Below, piece after piece: positions 3,002 to 8,327 of a stretch of DNA of 54,522 nucleotides. Source of the stretch: a virus; IMG/VR virus record IMGVR_UViG_3300020395_000014, positions 1 to 54,522 of that record; one strand, 5' to 3'. The notes below the pieces were generated by a model. It had not been told where the DNA came from and searched no databases. It saw nothing but the letters and a program-made list of their open reading frames with translations. Positions within the stretch are counted from its first letter, which is position 1, and every line of letters begins with the position of its first letter. The position numbers and the translations under genes were made by a program.

Positions 3002-3438
3002 TATTTTATCCCAAGTTCTTTTTCAGTAACCACTTTAAATTCCAATTGTCTATCAGCACACCATTCTCTTGCTTCTTTCCATTTTGCTTGGTTCTTTGCA
3101 TATTCGTATGCTTCACGAATATAACCAGGAGTTTGACGTTTTGGTTTTTTAGGTGGAGAGCATTGCTTTAAAGGCTTTACTTCAATAACATATCTTTTTA
3201 TTTGACCATTAGTTTCTTTTACTTTCATATAGAAGTCTGGAAAATATCTATGTGGTTTTCCATCAACGGGAGATATGTAAGGTATTGCTATTTCTTCACT
3301 GTTCCATTCTAATATATTAGAGTTTTTATCACAATAAACCATAAATTTTCTTTCCCATAATGACCTAAAGATTATATTTGTTGGATCACCTTTATACTTT
3401 CGTGGGTGAGATGGTTGATATTTTCCTTTATAAGCCAT
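3001..3438 (-). CDS. 4: Head completion protein gp4
   Basis: At 145 residues it matches T4 gp4 (150 residues), which finishes packaged heads before tail joining. Matching features are the MAYKGKYQPSHPRKYKGDP start, RSLWERKFMVYCDKN (T4 RSNWEKFFFEWLDKN), WNSEEIAIPY, RYFPDFYM and the YVIEVKP motif. Asp68 in PDFY and Glu86-Val-Lys88 have the order of a PD-(D/E)xK nuclease site. This agrees with proposals that the family is nuclease-like, but activity is not shown. It is first in the leftward operon, with a CTAAATA late box 26 bases upstream. Confidence 0.9.
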   Translation of the reverse strand: MAYKGKYQPSHPRKYKGDPTNIIFRSLWERKFMVYCDKNSNILEWNSEEIAIPYISPVDGKPHRYFPDFYMKVKETNGQIKRYVIEVKPLKQCSPPKKPKRQTPGYIREAYEYAKNQAKWKEAREWCADRQLEFKVVTEKELGIK

Positions 3439-3445: not shown

Positions 3446-3463
3446 GAAATGATATAATAAAAC

Positions 3464-3470
3464 TATTTAG
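3464..3470 (-). promoter_or_regulatory. Late promoter box (CTAAATA), leftward
   Basis: Minus-strand CTAAATA placed 25 bases before the gp4 start. It faces the rightward box across 18 bases, so the two promoters should initiate within a few bases of each other. Confidence 0.6.
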
Positions 3471-3474
3471 AGTA

Positions 3475-4305
3475 GTGGCAGCACCAATCCCAAAGAAAAT
3501 ATCTCAGATATTGCCAACATTTCAAAATGTCGCACAAACTTCTAATTATCTGGTGCAATTTAGTATGCCGCCAGGTGGTTTAAGAGATTTCCTTGAAAGT
3601 AAAGGAGTTGATTGGAGATTTCATTCCGATCAGATAGGATTACTTTGTAATCGTGCTTCTTTACCTGGAAGTGGATTTGCAACTGCTGATATAGTAGGTG
3701 ATTATCAAGGAGTTGTTGAGAAAAGACCGCATACAAGAAAATTCACTCAAATAACTTTAGATTTTTATGTTGATAATGAATATAAAACTCTTAAGTTTTT
3801 AGAACATTGGATGGAGTATATTAGTGGTGGTTCTCCAGCAAATTCTGTTGATGATGCCTATAATTTTAAGATGAGATATCCAGAAGAATATAGATCAGAG
3901 AATACTAAAATAATTAAATTTGAAAAAAATTATAGACAATCACTTGAATATGGTTTTCGGGGATTATTTCCTTATGAATTAAATTCTACAAGGGTACAAT
4001 ATGATAACTCTCAGGTTTTAGTTGTATCTGCTAATTTCTTATATGATAGGTATATTTGCGGAGAATCTAGTTCTTGGTCAAGAGAAAGAGGAGTAGATCG
4101 TAATAAAAAGGGAATTGATAAATCAAGATCTATGAATAGATTCATGGGTGGAGATGCATCAATAACTCAAACTCTTAATGCTAATGCACCAGGAAATAAA
4201 GAATTAAAAAATAACTTAATAAGTAATGCAATTGATCCTAATTTAGGTAAAGATGGAACAGTTGTTGGATCTCAATATAGTAGTGGATGGTATGATGCTT
4301 ATTAA
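3475..4305 (+). CDS. Tail tube / baseplate tube-initiator-like protein (gp54 or gp19 family)
   Basis: GTG is chosen as start because upstream codons lie in the divergent promoter and the reverse gp4 gene. The product is about 276 residues and starts AAPIPKKISQILPTF after the initiator. It has NYLVQFSMPPGG, then LPGSGFATADIVGDYQGVVE and FTQITLDFYVDNEYKTLKFLEHW. This is the order of a Myoviridae tail-tube fold: beta strands, an 'R-x-F-T-x-I' strand and a helix near 'F-x-x-W'. The length is nearer T4 gp54 (320) than gp19 (163). It could be the gp54 counterpart that starts tube growth on gp48. There is no clear Shine-Dalgarno. The C-terminal 60 residues are polar and probably flexible. Confidence 0.65.
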   Translation: MAAPIPKKISQILPTFQNVAQTSNYLVQFSMPPGGLRDFLESKGVDWRFHSDQIGLLCNRASLPGSGFATADIVGDYQGVVEKRPHTRKFTQITLDFYVDNEYKTLKFLEHWMEYISGGSPANSVDDAYNFKMRYPEEYRSENTKIIKFEKNYRQSLEYGFRGLFPYELNSTRVQYDNSQVLVVSANFLYDRYICGESSSWSRERGVDRNKKGIDKSRSMNRFMGGDASITQTLNANAPGNKELKNNLISNAIDPNLGKDGTVVGSQYSSGWYDAY

Positions 4306-4349: not shown

Positions 4350-5072
4350 ATGCCTTTACCAAAGATTTCGACTCCTTCTTATGAGTTAATTATTCCTTCT
4401 ACAAAGAAAAAAGTTAAATTTAGACCCTTTTTAGTTAAGGAAGAGAAAATTCTTATATTGGCTATGGAGAGTAATAATCCTACTCAAGTAGCTAATGCTG
4501 TTAAAGATGTTATTTCATCTTGCATTCTTTCAAGGGGTGTTAAAGTAGAATCTCTTTCTACATTTGATATTGAATATATTTTCCTTAATATACGTGGAAA
4601 ATCTGTAGGTGAAGAGATTGAAGTTATGATTACTTGTCCTGATGATGAAAAGACACAAGTTTCATCCGTTATTAATATTGATGAAATACAGATACAAGAA
4701 TCAAAAGATCATTCTAAAGATATTAAATTAGATGATAATCTTACACTTAGGATGAAATATCCATCAATGAGTGAATTTATTAAATCAAATTTTGCTGTTT
4801 CTGCAGATGCTGTAGATGTAGATGATACTTTTAAATTAATTGCTTCTTGTATAGATCAAATATATTCTGAAGAGGAATCTTGGGCAGGTTCCGATTCTAC
4901 TGATAAAGAGTTGAATGAGTTTGTTGAACAATTAAGTTCAAAACAATTTAAAGAAGTTGAAAATTTCTTTAATACAATGCCTAAATTATCACATACTGTA
5001 AAAGTTACAAATCCAAATACTAAAGTTGAAAGTGAAGTTGTATTGGAGGGATTACAAAGTTTTTTCGAGTAA
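4350..5072 (+). CDS. 26: gp26-like baseplate hub / tail assembly chaperone
   Basis: A 240-residue protein of the T4 gp26 type (208 residues). It has IPSTKKKVKFRPFLVKEEKI followed by LILAMESNN, the hallmark 'k.rpf.vkEek.ll.a.es.d' start, then VISSCILSRGVKVESLSTFD and DIEYIFLNIRGKSVGEEIE. The second half (TLRMKYPSMSEFIK, then EFVEQLSSKQFKEVENFF) is helical. Position just before the tape-measure candidates, together with the frameshift signal in its last codons, makes it the equivalent of the lambda G product: a chaperone that coats the tape measure. A -1 shift at T_TTT_TTC would give a 302-residue fusion with the next ORF. Late promoter box at 4321. Confidence 0.8.
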   Translation: MPLPKISTPSYELIIPSTKKKVKFRPFLVKEEKILILAMESNNPTQVANAVKDVISSCILSRGVKVESLSTFDIEYIFLNIRGKSVGEEIEVMITCPDDEKTQVSSVINIDEIQIQESKDHSKDIKLDDNLTLRMKYPSMSEFIKSNFAVSADAVDVDDTFKLIASCIDQIYSEEESWAGSDSTDKELNEFVEQLSSKQFKEVENFFNTMPKLSHTVKVTNPNTKVESEVVLEGLQSFFE

Positions 5073-5102
5073 GTATGTCGCATGAAGATCTTGCGTCATA
5101 CT
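5060..5102 (+). other. Programmed -1 ribosomal frameshift signal
   Basis: The slippery heptamer T TTT TTC is in the gp26-like frame at 5060-5066. After a 5-base spacer, a stem pairs 5072-5077 (AGTATG) and 5079-5082 (CGCA) with 5092-5095 (TGCG) and 5097-5102 (CATACT). One T-T mismatch lies inside and the loop has 9 bases. The -1 frame from the heptamer is open (Phe-Phe-Arg-Val-Ser-Met) and is the frame of the downstream 60-codon ORF. Heptamer type, spacing and structure fit canonical -1 recoding. Seen in the sequence; function inferred. Confidence 0.78.
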
Positions 5103-5257
5103 ATAAAATAAATTTTGCCTTAATGCAACATCATAAATATAGCTTAACAGAGTTAGAAAATATGATACCTTGGGAAAGGGAAATTTATCTATCTCTTCTT
5201 CAGCAATATATTGAAGAAGAAAATTTAAAAGCACAACAAGCAGCAGCAAATGGCTGA
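5075..5257 (+). CDS. Tail assembly chaperone second part (T-like), expressed by -1 frameshift
   Basis: Sixty codons, beginning MSHEDLASYYKINFALMQHH and including the helix LTELENMIPWEREIYLSLL, then a charged tail. It lies in the -1 frame of the gp26-like gene, directly after the slippery site, and its first codons form the stimulatory stem. There is no good ribosome binding site of its own: the ATG is 3 bases after the gp26 stop. The helix with 'PWERE' followed by a Tyr/Leu-rich stretch resembles the short second domains fused by frameshifting in tail chaperones before tape-measure genes (lambda GT, P2 E'). It overlaps the next gene by 8 bases. Independent translation from ATG 5075 cannot be excluded. 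Confidence 0.7.
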   Translation: MSHEDLASYYKINFALMQHHKYSLTELENMIPWEREIYLSLLQQYIEEENLKAQQAAANG

Positions 5258-6818
5258 ACCAGCATCACCAGTAGCAGGATCAATACAAGGTATTAGAAGA
5301 AGTGTTTCTTCTAGTATGTTTGCAGGTGGTGGTTTACCTGGTAATATGATTACCAGACCAGATCCAACAACTACTACTTTAATACAAAATAATTCATTAT
5401 TAGTAAGAGGACTTACTGGTAGAATTGGTCAATTAGAAAATAATATTGCTGTATTAACAAGTGGTTTAAATGGATTACAGCAAAGTTTAGCTTTAAGTCA
5501 AAGTTTAGAAAGGCAGAGAGAAGAAGCAAAGGCTAAAAGAGATTTTATACTTGCACAACAAGCATTAAGGGAAGGAAAAGAAAGTGCTATAGAATCTAAG
5601 ATTGTAAATGCACTTACTTCACCTGTTAGAAGAATTGGATCAAAAGTACAATCCAGTTTAGCGAATCTACAGAATTTTTTAGGATATCTTGTTGGTGGAT
5701 GGTTTAGCGTTCAGGCATTATCAATTTTAAAAGCAAGAGCTGAGGGTAATACTCAGAAATTGGGAGAATTAAGACGTAAATTATATAAAAATCTTTTATT
5801 TGTTGGTGGTACTCTTCTTTTACTTAAAAGTGGATTGGGTCTTATACTGAGAACCTTATCAACAGTTGGTAAAAGAATTGCTTTATTTTCTATTAATAGG
5901 TTAGTTAAAGCACCTCTTATTGCTTTGACTGGATTATTATCTCGTTTATTTGGTGGTATTTTTGGTAAAGGTGCTGGTAAAGCAGGTTCTTTTCAGGGTG
6001 GTGTAAGTTTATTTGGTGCAGCAGATGAAGCATCAAATATGACTAAGAAACAGAAGACAAAACAATTAAAGAAAAATAAAAATAAATGGTGGAGATCTAA
6101 TAAAAGACCAAGTTCATTAGGTACTAAGGGTCTTGGTATTAATATTGGTATTCAATCTCTTCTTTTTGGTAAAGATATTAAAGATACTATTGTAGATGAG
6201 AGTATTGCTTTTGGTGCAGGTAAAATTGTTGAACGTGGTCTTAGGAAAAAGTTTGGAATTCTTGCCGATATTGGTGGTATTTTAACATGGATAAGTGTAA
6301 GTGAGATTCTAAATTTCCTTAGATTTCAAAATAGTAAAGAATCCTCTTCACAATCTGAGAATCAAACTAGTGATAATAATAGTGGCATAAATGCAAGTCT
6401 TATGTCACCAATAAGTGCAGTGGATCTTCAGAATGATATTTTATCAAAAAAACCTCAAGAGGGTGATTATGAAACTAAAGAAGAATTTAATCGTGCTAAT
6501 GATGCATTTGCTCTTAAGTATGGTGATCGGTTACAATCTTTACAAGAAGAGATTAATAGTAGTGGGGATGAAAAAATAGTAGCAAATCAAAATAATCTTC
6601 AAATTAAAAAGAATGATAAGCAGATTAATCAATTACAAGAACCTGCACCTCTTATTGTTCCAATGAATGCTGCTTCAAATGCTGGTCAATCATCTGGTTC
6701 TTCTCCTGGTGGATCAACTTCATCTGGATCTGGTGAGATCCCTGATATAGCATCTTCTAATGGTGATAATGATTATGTATTTCTTGCATATAAGCAGTTT
6801 CAAGTAGCTCCAGTTTAA
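5250..6818 (+). CDS. Putative tape-measure / tail structural protein 1 (522 aa)
   Basis: Residues 42-110 form a predicted coiled coil (leucine/glutamine heptads, QLENNIAVLTSGLNGLQQSL). A hydrophobic segment follows at 141-160 (FLGYLVGGWFSVQALSIL) and another at 181-200 (NLLFVGGTLLLLKSGLGLIL), then a Gly/Leu-rich helical region to about 245 and a basic patch (KKQKTKQLKKNKNKWW). The remainder is helical and ends in a polar Ser/Gly-rich linker. Coiled coil plus membrane helices plus position right after the frameshifted chaperone are the usual marks of a tape-measure protein. T4 gp29, the equivalent, has 590 residues. I do not see direct similarity to gp29. It starts inside the preceding ORF. 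Confidence 0.6.
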   Translation: MAEPASPVAGSIQGIRRSVSSSMFAGGGLPGNMITRPDPTTTTLIQNNSLLVRGLTGRIGQLENNIAVLTSGLNGLQQSLALSQSLERQREEAKAKRDFILAQQALREGKESAIESKIVNALTSPVRRIGSKVQSSLANLQNFLGYLVGGWFSVQALSILKARAEGNTQKLGELRRKLYKNLLFVGGTLLLLKSGLGLILRTLSTVGKRIALFSINRLVKAPLIALTGLLSRLFGGIFGKGAGKAGSFQGGVSLFGAADEASNMTKKQKTKQLKKNKNKWWRSNKRPSSLGTKGLGINIGIQSLLFGKDIKDTIVDESIAFGAGKIVERGLRKKFGILADIGGILTWISVSEILNFLRFQNSKESSSQSENQTSDNNSGINASLMSPISAVDLQNDILSKKPQEGDYETKEEFNRANDAFALKYGDRLQSLQEEINSSGDEKIVANQNNLQIKKNDKQINQLQEPAPLIVPMNAASNAGQSSGSSPGGSTSSGSGEIPDIASSNGDNDYVFLAYKQFQVAPV

Positions 6819-6821
6819 TAT

Positions 6822-8327
6822 ATGTCAGATAGAAATACTAAAAGGGTACATACCTCATTAAATATTACTTCTAAAAGTCTACGAAAGATAAGTGAGACTA
6901 CTTCTAATCTTTCTCAAGGTCTTGTTAAATCAATTAGAGTGACAAGAGGTATTGTACAAAAAACTAAGTCTCATAATGAATATAAAAGGACTTTAATTGG
7001 AAGAGATGATACTTTTTTTAGGAGAAGAAGAGAAGCTGTTTTAAGAAAGGATAGAGAGGATATTATAGAAGCAGGTAAAGTTGGTGGTCCTATGAGGATG
7101 CAGGGAAAAATACCTACTTCTAGTACAAGAGGATTTTTGGGAAGAGTACTTAATTTGTTTGGTGTTGTTTTAATAGGTTGGATGGTGAGAACATTGCCAG
7201 AGTTGATTAAGAAGACAAATAAGTTTATTAAAACTATAAAGGATGCAGCTACAACTCTTAGTAATTGGATAGAATCTGTTGGTAGTAATATAACTGCTTT
7301 TACGAATGATTTTGGTGAGATATTAAGTGGTGTATTGAGATTAGAATTTACTAAAGAGAATGAAACCATCGAAACTGAGATGGAGGATATAAACAAAAAA
7401 TTTGCATTAATTGATCAGGATCTTAGTTTATCAATGGCAATGTATATGAATCCTAAAATGTATGGTTTGAATTCATTTGATCCTGATGAGATTATGGAAT
7501 CTAATATGGGAGTTAAGCCTGGAAAAAATCAATGGTGGGACTTTCTTGATTTATTTCCTAATCCTCCAAGTAATCCTACTGATGGGGAAATTGAGGAAGA
7601 AGGTGAAGTAGATCCTGATGAAGACGGTACTCTTATTAATAGTGGTGATGAGGAAACTGAAGATAAAGTTAATGTTGAAGTTGATAAAGTTAAAGAATTA
7701 GATCCAAAACAATTAATTGAAGATTCTGATGATGAAAAACTACAACAAGCTAAAAAAGAATCTGGTCTTGATAAAACTCCTGATATAAGAGGATTGGATG
7801 GTAAAGAACTTTCACCTGAAATAAATGCACAGCAAGAAAAGGCATTAGATGCTAGTGGATGGAAAATGTTTAAGAAGGGTGGGTTTATAAAAGGAAAGTC
7901 TCATGAACAAGGTGGAGAAAAGGCATTAGTTGAATCTGGTGAAGGTATTTTAAATAAAGAAACAACTGAAAAGATTGGTGGTGAGGACACTATAAATGCT
8001 TTAAATAGTAAATCTTTTTGGAATATTAAAAGAAATGATAATATAGAATCTACAATAAATAATAAATCTAATGAGGAGCAATTTGCAAGAAGAGATTTAA
8101 AAGTTCAGAATAAAATTAATACTAAAAAGAAGGTGGATTTGCAATTAGCTGAAAGGGTTAAGGTTGATAGGAAAGGTCCAGTTATAATGGTTAGTTCTCA
8201 ACCTTCTTCTGGATCTTCTTCTGCATCTCCTTCTGGTGGATCAAAAACTAAAGTTGTTATGCTTGGTAATAATAAACCTGGCAATTTTATTAAACAAGTT
8301 CAATCTTTACAATACGCATATACTTAA
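6822..8327 (+). CDS. Putative tape-measure / tail structural protein 2 (501 aa)
   Basis: Architecture resembles the preceding protein: a basic helical N-terminus (1-100), then one hydrophobic segment at 105-130 (FLGRVLNLFGVVLIGWMV), then helices. Residues about 230-330 are very acidic. From about residue 353 there is GGFIKGKSHEQGGEKALVE, followed by SGEGILNKETTEKIGG and DTINALN. This G-G-x-x-x-G-x-S/G-H-x-x-G-G…E-x-G-E pattern is common near the C-terminus of phage tape-measure proteins. The tail is Ser/Gly-rich. It may be the second half of a two-gene tape measure, or a partner protein. The gene is 3 bases downstream of the previous one. Confidence 0.58.
   Translation: MSDRNTKRVHTSLNITSKSLRKISETTSNLSQGLVKSIRVTRGIVQKTKSHNEYKRTLIGRDDTFFRRRREAVLRKDREDIIEAGKVGGPMRMQGKIPTSSTRGFLGRVLNLFGVVLIGWMVRTLPELIKKTNKFIKTIKDAATTLSNWIESVGSNITAFTNDFGEILSGVLRLEFTKENETIETEMEDINKKFALIDQDLSLSMAMYMNPKMYGLNSFDPDEIMESNMGVKPGKNQWWDFLDLFPNPPSNPTDGEIEEEGEVDPDEDGTLINSGDEETEDKVNVEVDKVKELDPKQLIEDSDDEKLQQAKKESGLDKTPDIRGLDGKELSPEINAQQEKALDASGWKMFKKGGFIKGKSHEQGGEKALVESGEGILNKETTEKIGGEDTINALNSKSFWNIKRNDNIESTINNKSNEEQFARRDLKVQNKINTKKKVDLQLAERVKVDRKGPVIMVSSQPSSGSSSASPSGGSKTKVVMLGNNKPGNFIKQVQSLQYAYT

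Follow-up and report, generated by a model that had tools for sequence, protein, structure and literature searches.

The stretch of marine viral DNA analysed here (the window: positions 1 to 54,522 of IMG/VR record IMGVR_UViG_3300020395_000014, 54,522 nt) encodes a homolog of T4 gp26 whose stop codon is followed closely by an open reading frame (ORF) of only 60 codons. The region studied, positions 4,350 to 5,102, raises the question of how this small ORF is translated and what its product does. In phage lambda, a gene located between those for the tail tube and the tape measure yields a short chaperone, gpG, and, at a low level, the −1 fusion gpGT, neither of which is found in the virion (PMC5009743). 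The same 2016 review describes the G-T frameshift as conserved throughout the long-tailed phages, T4 excepted (PMC5009743). In T4, gp26 and gp51 are counted among the chaperones of hub assembly, and the particle lacks gp51 (PMC3004832). Our analysis makes it very probable that gp26 is the short tail assembly chaperone form (TAC-N) and that −1 frameshifting yields a 302-residue long form (TAC-NC), the two making up a chaperone pair of the lambda type.

A slippery heptamer and a stem at the end of gp26

All features described below lie on the plus strand. The gp26 ORF (4350..5072, 240 aa) ends with the 0-frame codons AGT (5058), TTT (5061), TTC (5064), GAG (5067) and TAA (5070), the stop occupying positions 5070..5072. 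These codons contain an in-frame heptamer of the X XXY YYZ type, T TTT TTC (5060..5066), located 10 bases before the stop. A 5-base spacer (5067..5071), composed of the GAG codon and the first two bases of the stop, separates the heptamer from a putative stimulatory stem with the 5′ arm at 5072..5082, a 9-base loop at 5083..5091 and the 3′ arm at 5092..5102. The arms, AGTATG-T-CGCA and TGCG-T-CATACT, form 10 pairs with one T-T mismatch. The −1 frame, which begins CGA GTA AGT ATG TCG, is open across the junction up to a stop at 5255-5257, extending 61 codons past the gp26 stop (54-67 in the presumed frameshifting relatives). The predicted fusion consists of gp26 residues 1-239 (ending in QSFF), the tripeptide RVS and the 60 residues of the small ORF, 302 residues in total. 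Base for base, this agrees with an earlier note on the same DNA, which had described the heptamer, spacer, stem and loop, the open −1 frame entering the 60-codon ORF and a fused form of about 302 residues.

The 71-nt segment of the window has a folding energy of −16.8 kcal/mol (z = −3.4). In addition, the window holds 38 ORFs that reach 100 codons or more, and none but gp26 combines a slippery heptamer within its final 120 nt with a −1 extension that reaches 40 codons. Given the fold, the uniqueness of this ORF and the near-invariant position and codons of the heptamer in relatives (see below), the arrangement of heptamer and stem is far beyond chance.

gp26 and the small ORF together correspond to gp51

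The gp26 of the window matches PF12322 (E = 1.2e−74; 251 bits against a curated cut-off of 24.5) and phrog_150 (E = 2.6e−81), and is 74% identical to that of Prochlorococcus phage P-SSM2. The −1 segment, comprising RVS and the 60-codon ORF (5066..5257), is the putative C domain (TAC-C) of the long form. The ORF aligns to phrog_634, the gp51 family annotated as baseplate hub assembly catalyst, over the C-terminal half of the family (E = 1.5e−28), as well as to the C-terminus of an Aeromonas T4-like gp51 (BLASTP, 37%, E = 4e−9). It also matches the end of the gp26 family phrog_150 (positions 238-278), which implies that fused members of this family exist. Along the gp51 of Aeromonas phage SW69-9, the counterparts of gp26 and of the small ORF follow in the same order: its residues 14-197 align to gp26 residues 23-240 (E = 8e−10), and residues 200-247 align to the small ORF (E = 4e−9). 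T4 gp51 aligns likewise by profile comparison, the profile (A2) including one gp51 sequence (L340), and T4 gp26 aligns to the gp26 part alone. Judging by these alignments, the predicted fusion has an equivalent with a gene of its own, gp51, in T4 and in the Aeromonas phage, so that the two T-even genes, 26 and 51, would correspond to one gene plus a slip in the window. The 54.5-kb window has a single copy of gp26 and a single copy of the small domain, and thus no separate full-length gp51. In T4 record KJ477684 (L081, 2192-2941) the gp51 frame is intact, without a CDS feature in the listed stretch.

The AlphaFold2 model of gp26 has a pLDDT of 89. Its most probable PDB match is the HK97 tail assembly chaperone 2OB9 (probability 0.60, about 75 columns), which is non-significant by E-value (0.85). 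A sequence-based search for a relative of solved structure returned chance matches only.

Gene order and proposed function

Tail tube, gp26 (TAC-N), the small ORF (TAC-C) and tape-measure candidates follow one another in the window, and this is the gene order of other tail assembly chaperones. The tail tube protein gene was identified at 3463..4305 (phrog_45, E = 2.8e−35); the ORF opens at 3406, position 3463 being an internal start selected for searching. Tape-measure candidate 1 (5250..6818, 522 aa), in which a central hydrophobic stretch is discernible by eye, comes directly after TAC-C, at the place where the earlier note had put such candidates. Candidate 2 (6822..8327, 501 aa) was assigned by position only. 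Neither candidate has a match in PHROG, Pfam or NCBIfam; their identity is thus based on position and on the annotation of Rhizobium phage RHph_I1_18, where the second gene after the homologous pair is named tail tape measure protein, and not on homology. The tape-measure position of the window (5250-8327) is occupied by two consecutive genes of ~500 aa and that of S-PM2 by one of ~1170 aa; the former is possibly a split tape measure.

From these elements we infer slippage, its rate and a chaperone function along the following lines. Most ribosomes translating gp26 would terminate at the TAA at 5070. A minority would stall at the stem five bases past the heptamer, and pairing of an upstream GGAGGG element (see below) with the 16S anti-Shine-Dalgarno sequence would aid the pause. 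The Phe-tRNAs on TTT and TTC would then slip back by one base and re-pair on TTT TTT, and the slipped ribosomes would continue via RVS into the 60-codon ORF, producing the 302-residue TAC-NC. By analogy with lambda gpG/gpGT, both forms may coat the tape-measure protein, the C domain may recruit tail tube subunits, and both forms may leave before completion of the virion. In T-even phages, genes 26 and 51 would each supply one of the two forms. The likening of gp26 to the lambda G/GT chaperones, put forward in the earlier note, is supported by the gene order, by the equivalence of gp51 to the fusion and by the weak hint of an HK97 chaperone fold.

Alternatively, gp26 and the fusion might be structural components of the hub rather than chaperones of the tail tube and tape measure, with the frameshift serving baseplate hub assembly. 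The T4 literature does name gp26 and gp51 hub assembly proteins, and some genetics places gp26 in the hub (PMC3004832). However, the short/long architecture and the position between the tail tube and the tape-measure candidates speak for chaperones, as do the absence of gp51 from virions (PMC3004832) and the publication of gp26/gp51 as TAC genes. A structural role in the hub therefore seems unlikely, although the two views overlap, because the tape measure attaches to the hub.

Conservation of the heptamer and of an upstream element

To assess the conservation of the junction, relatives were collected from IMG/VR and from named phages, and 285 distinct gp26 ends were compared. T TTT TTC is found exactly at −10 from the stop in 278 of them; these loci share kinship, so the counts do not represent independent events, although the lineages are very distant. 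Distant T4-like lineages with the heptamer at −10 include Schizotequatrovirus and Nanhuvirus, and the same holds for Stenotrophomonas DLP6, Menderavirus Ps15, Cronobacter LPCS28, Vibrio EniLVp02 and D480, Aeromonas 65 and Nitratidesulfovibrio SRB7757. In Sinorhizobium phiM7 the sequence is T TTT TTT, at −13. The heptamer is absent in six of the 285 ends, namely, in T4, Enterobacter SonariX, Aeromonas SW69-9 (a gp51) and three Ackermannviridae-type loci. In Methylophilales Melnitz, T TTT TTT occurs at −7. The codon choice at the junction is equally constrained: xxT TTT TTC is used in 278 of 278 cases, compared with 1 of 290 other Phe-Phe pairs in the same genes and an expectation of 8% from codon usage.

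Several divergent loci deserve mention. In Rhizobium phage RHph_I1_18 (L348, 1498-1535), T TTT TTA is located 34 nt before the gp26 stop instead of at −10, resulting in a longer overlap of the two frames. The Ackermannviridae-type loci without the heptamer come from Vibrio (L084, 3201-3230; L085, 3198-3225; L350, 1453-1480). In two of these three, L085 and L350, gp26 ends in a short T-run followed by C and overlaps the next start as TAATG; these ends resemble the GTTTTT motif reported for Vandenendeviridae and possibly represent a single-tRNA slip or a coupled start. Streptococcus phage vB_SagM-GXN1 (L352), named as a Streptococcus agalactiae phage, has a partial match to T4-type gp26 without the heptamer, and the host or the identity of this record is doubtful.

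Nine bases 5′ of the heptamer the window has a Shine-Dalgarno (SD)-like sequence, GGAGGG (5045..5050). An SD-like core of at least 4 nt is present 8-10 nt from the heptamer in about 74% of the 278 loci, against a background of about 20%; most of the S-CAM4 lineage lacks it. The Glu codon of this element is GAG in 154 of 199 cases, versus 30% elsewhere. By analogy with dnaX, GGAGGG is likely to be an upstream frameshift stimulator.

The downstream stem covaries and differs between lineages

Folding of the 45 bases that begin 4 nt past the heptamer gave a mean z of −2.64 over 176 representatives, 76% of them being below −1.5, whereas eleven control windows in the same loci gave mean z values from −0.57 to +0.15. 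Pairing in the 11-pair stem amounts to 92.9% over 67 window-like sequences, compared with 25-47% when the stem is slid by 1-3 columns. Two-sided changes in these sequences amount to 30 cells versus 10.1 in shuffles, with none of 500 shuffles as high; as the covariation group (A) was picked for ATG and TCAT, the pairs in columns 16-40, 17-39 and 18-38, together with the 3′ side of 19-37, were bound to be invariant, and the information resides only in the remaining pairs, chiefly 21-35. This chief covarying pair, corresponding to bases 5080/5094 of the window, is UA in 36, GC in 19 and AU in 9 of the 67 sequences, and U-A, G-C or A-U in 98 of 102 sequences. It changed ~12 times on the gp26 tree (single sides alone: 10 and 11 changes). 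On one side of the pair is a mostly synonymous third codon position (mostly Ala), on the other a second position at which changes alter the amino acid (Glu/Ala/Val), so its covariation is not explained by protein constraint. Conservation of the heptamer and the stem with compensatory changes, which the earlier note had proposed looking for, is thus borne out in the relatives.

Members of the S-PM2 and S-CAM4 lineages also have a stem, with a wholly different sequence and register, and the predicted stems of the S-RIM2 lineage are weak. Overall, the stem differs between P-SSM2-like, S-PM2-like and S-CAM4-like lineages, and both the SD-like element and a backup start codon may be present or absent. 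We lean towards a scenario where the heptamer has been frozen in T4-like phages and the stimulatory RNA repeatedly rebuilt, the frameshift ratio being the conserved trait and the RNA its tunable part, with T4 later splitting the gene. A pseudoknot considered for S-CAM4 (CTCTTCC/GGAAGGG with ATAATA/TATTAT) was rejected upon inspection, because no base would be left for its third loop to span a 7-bp stem; only the first hairpin was kept. A search for an Rfam family produced sub-threshold chance matches only.

Does the small ORF have its own start?

The small ORF might instead be a separate gene (gp51), translated from the ATG at 5075 by termination-reinitiation coupled to gp26, in which case the heptamer would be incidental. 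Indeed, database records list gp26 and gp51 as distinct genes, the sequence TAAGTATG puts an ATG (5075..5077) 2 nt past the stop, and Ackermannviridae lack the heptamer and have the start overlapping the stop as TAATG. However, the ATG of the window sits within the stem and is preceded only by a weak GAG 5 nt upstream. Moreover, 122 of the 278 heptamer-bearing loci contain no ATG, GTG or TTG between the heptamer and a point 12 nt past the stop. In most of the start-less loci the first ATG is located 53 nt past the stop, inside a conserved stretch, and the preceding peptide, IALFHNTLEGYYKTNF, is conserved as well. In those lineages frameshifting is the only plausible route to the domain. An incidental heptamer is also at odds with the invariant choice of T TTT TTC, which is otherwise rare. 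Taken as the general mode of expression, a separate gene is thus very improbable, although a start of its own may provide a third product in some lineages. About half of the loci, the window included, keep an ATG 2 bases after the stop, and in the start-bearing lineages some independent initiation, yielding an additional free small protein, is possible. The earlier note had set frameshifting against an independent ribosome binding site for the small ORF: frameshifting stands in the 122 start-less relatives, whereas the window itself does contain a start codon, albeit a poorly placed one.

Transcriptional slippage on the T6 run, which would put part of the mRNAs into the alternative frame, finds a homopolymer at the junction, but is hardly credible, because six T residues are short for polymerase slippage, the run is fixed as T6C in codon phase over 278 loci without variation in length, and a covarying RNA stem 5-9 nt downstream is the expectation for ribosomal frameshifting.

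Relation to known frameshifting systems

A −1 frameshift in TAC genes of T4-like phages is already known in its essentials. Vladimirov, Gautam and Davidson (2022, Virology 566:9-15, pmid 34826709) reportedly identified the TAC genes of T4-like phages, with frameshifting conserved in several groups and T4 using genes 26 and 51; the family, the junction and the proposal are reportedly the same as here. Our results extend the 2022 proposal to a cyanophage-like contig and add the stem covariation, the replacement of stems, the SD-like element and the loss of start codons across lineages. With this independent evidence from RNA comparison, the published prediction becomes a strongly supported one. 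Of the papers citing the 2022 study, PMC10885494 states that in some T4-like phages the short and the fused form have separate genes, and PMC12846349 describes poly-T signals as known from the TAC-N genes of this phage group.

Compared by architecture, lambda gpG/gpGT shares with gp26 the logic of a short form plus a −1 fusion and the position in the genome. The same logic applies to the P2 E/E+E′ and HK97 gp13-type chaperones, the 2OB9 match to HK97 being non-significant by E-value. The lambda heptamer is G GGA AAG, whereas the junction studied here has T TTT TTC, an SD-like element and a clear downstream stem. This three-part layout is that of E. coli dnaX, which has an SD-like element, the heptamer A AAA AAG and a stem ~5 nt downstream. 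The two differ in the heptamer and in the outcome, as the dnaX frameshift leads to early termination and the one proposed here to a longer product. Frameshifting in T4-like phages would close the gap left by the T4 exception to the tail-chaperone frameshift. It would also assign a concrete function to gp26 and gp51, on which baseplate assembly in T4 has long been known to depend.

Ribosomal slippage is annotated in none of the Syn1, S-RIM2, S-CAM4 and S-RIM4 records (L092, L093, L094 and L095), in which the start of the small ORF is annotated ~50 nt late, within the conserved domain, or the ORF is missed. More broadly, the small ORF is mis-annotated in many database records: they omit it, split it off or place its start within the conserved domain.
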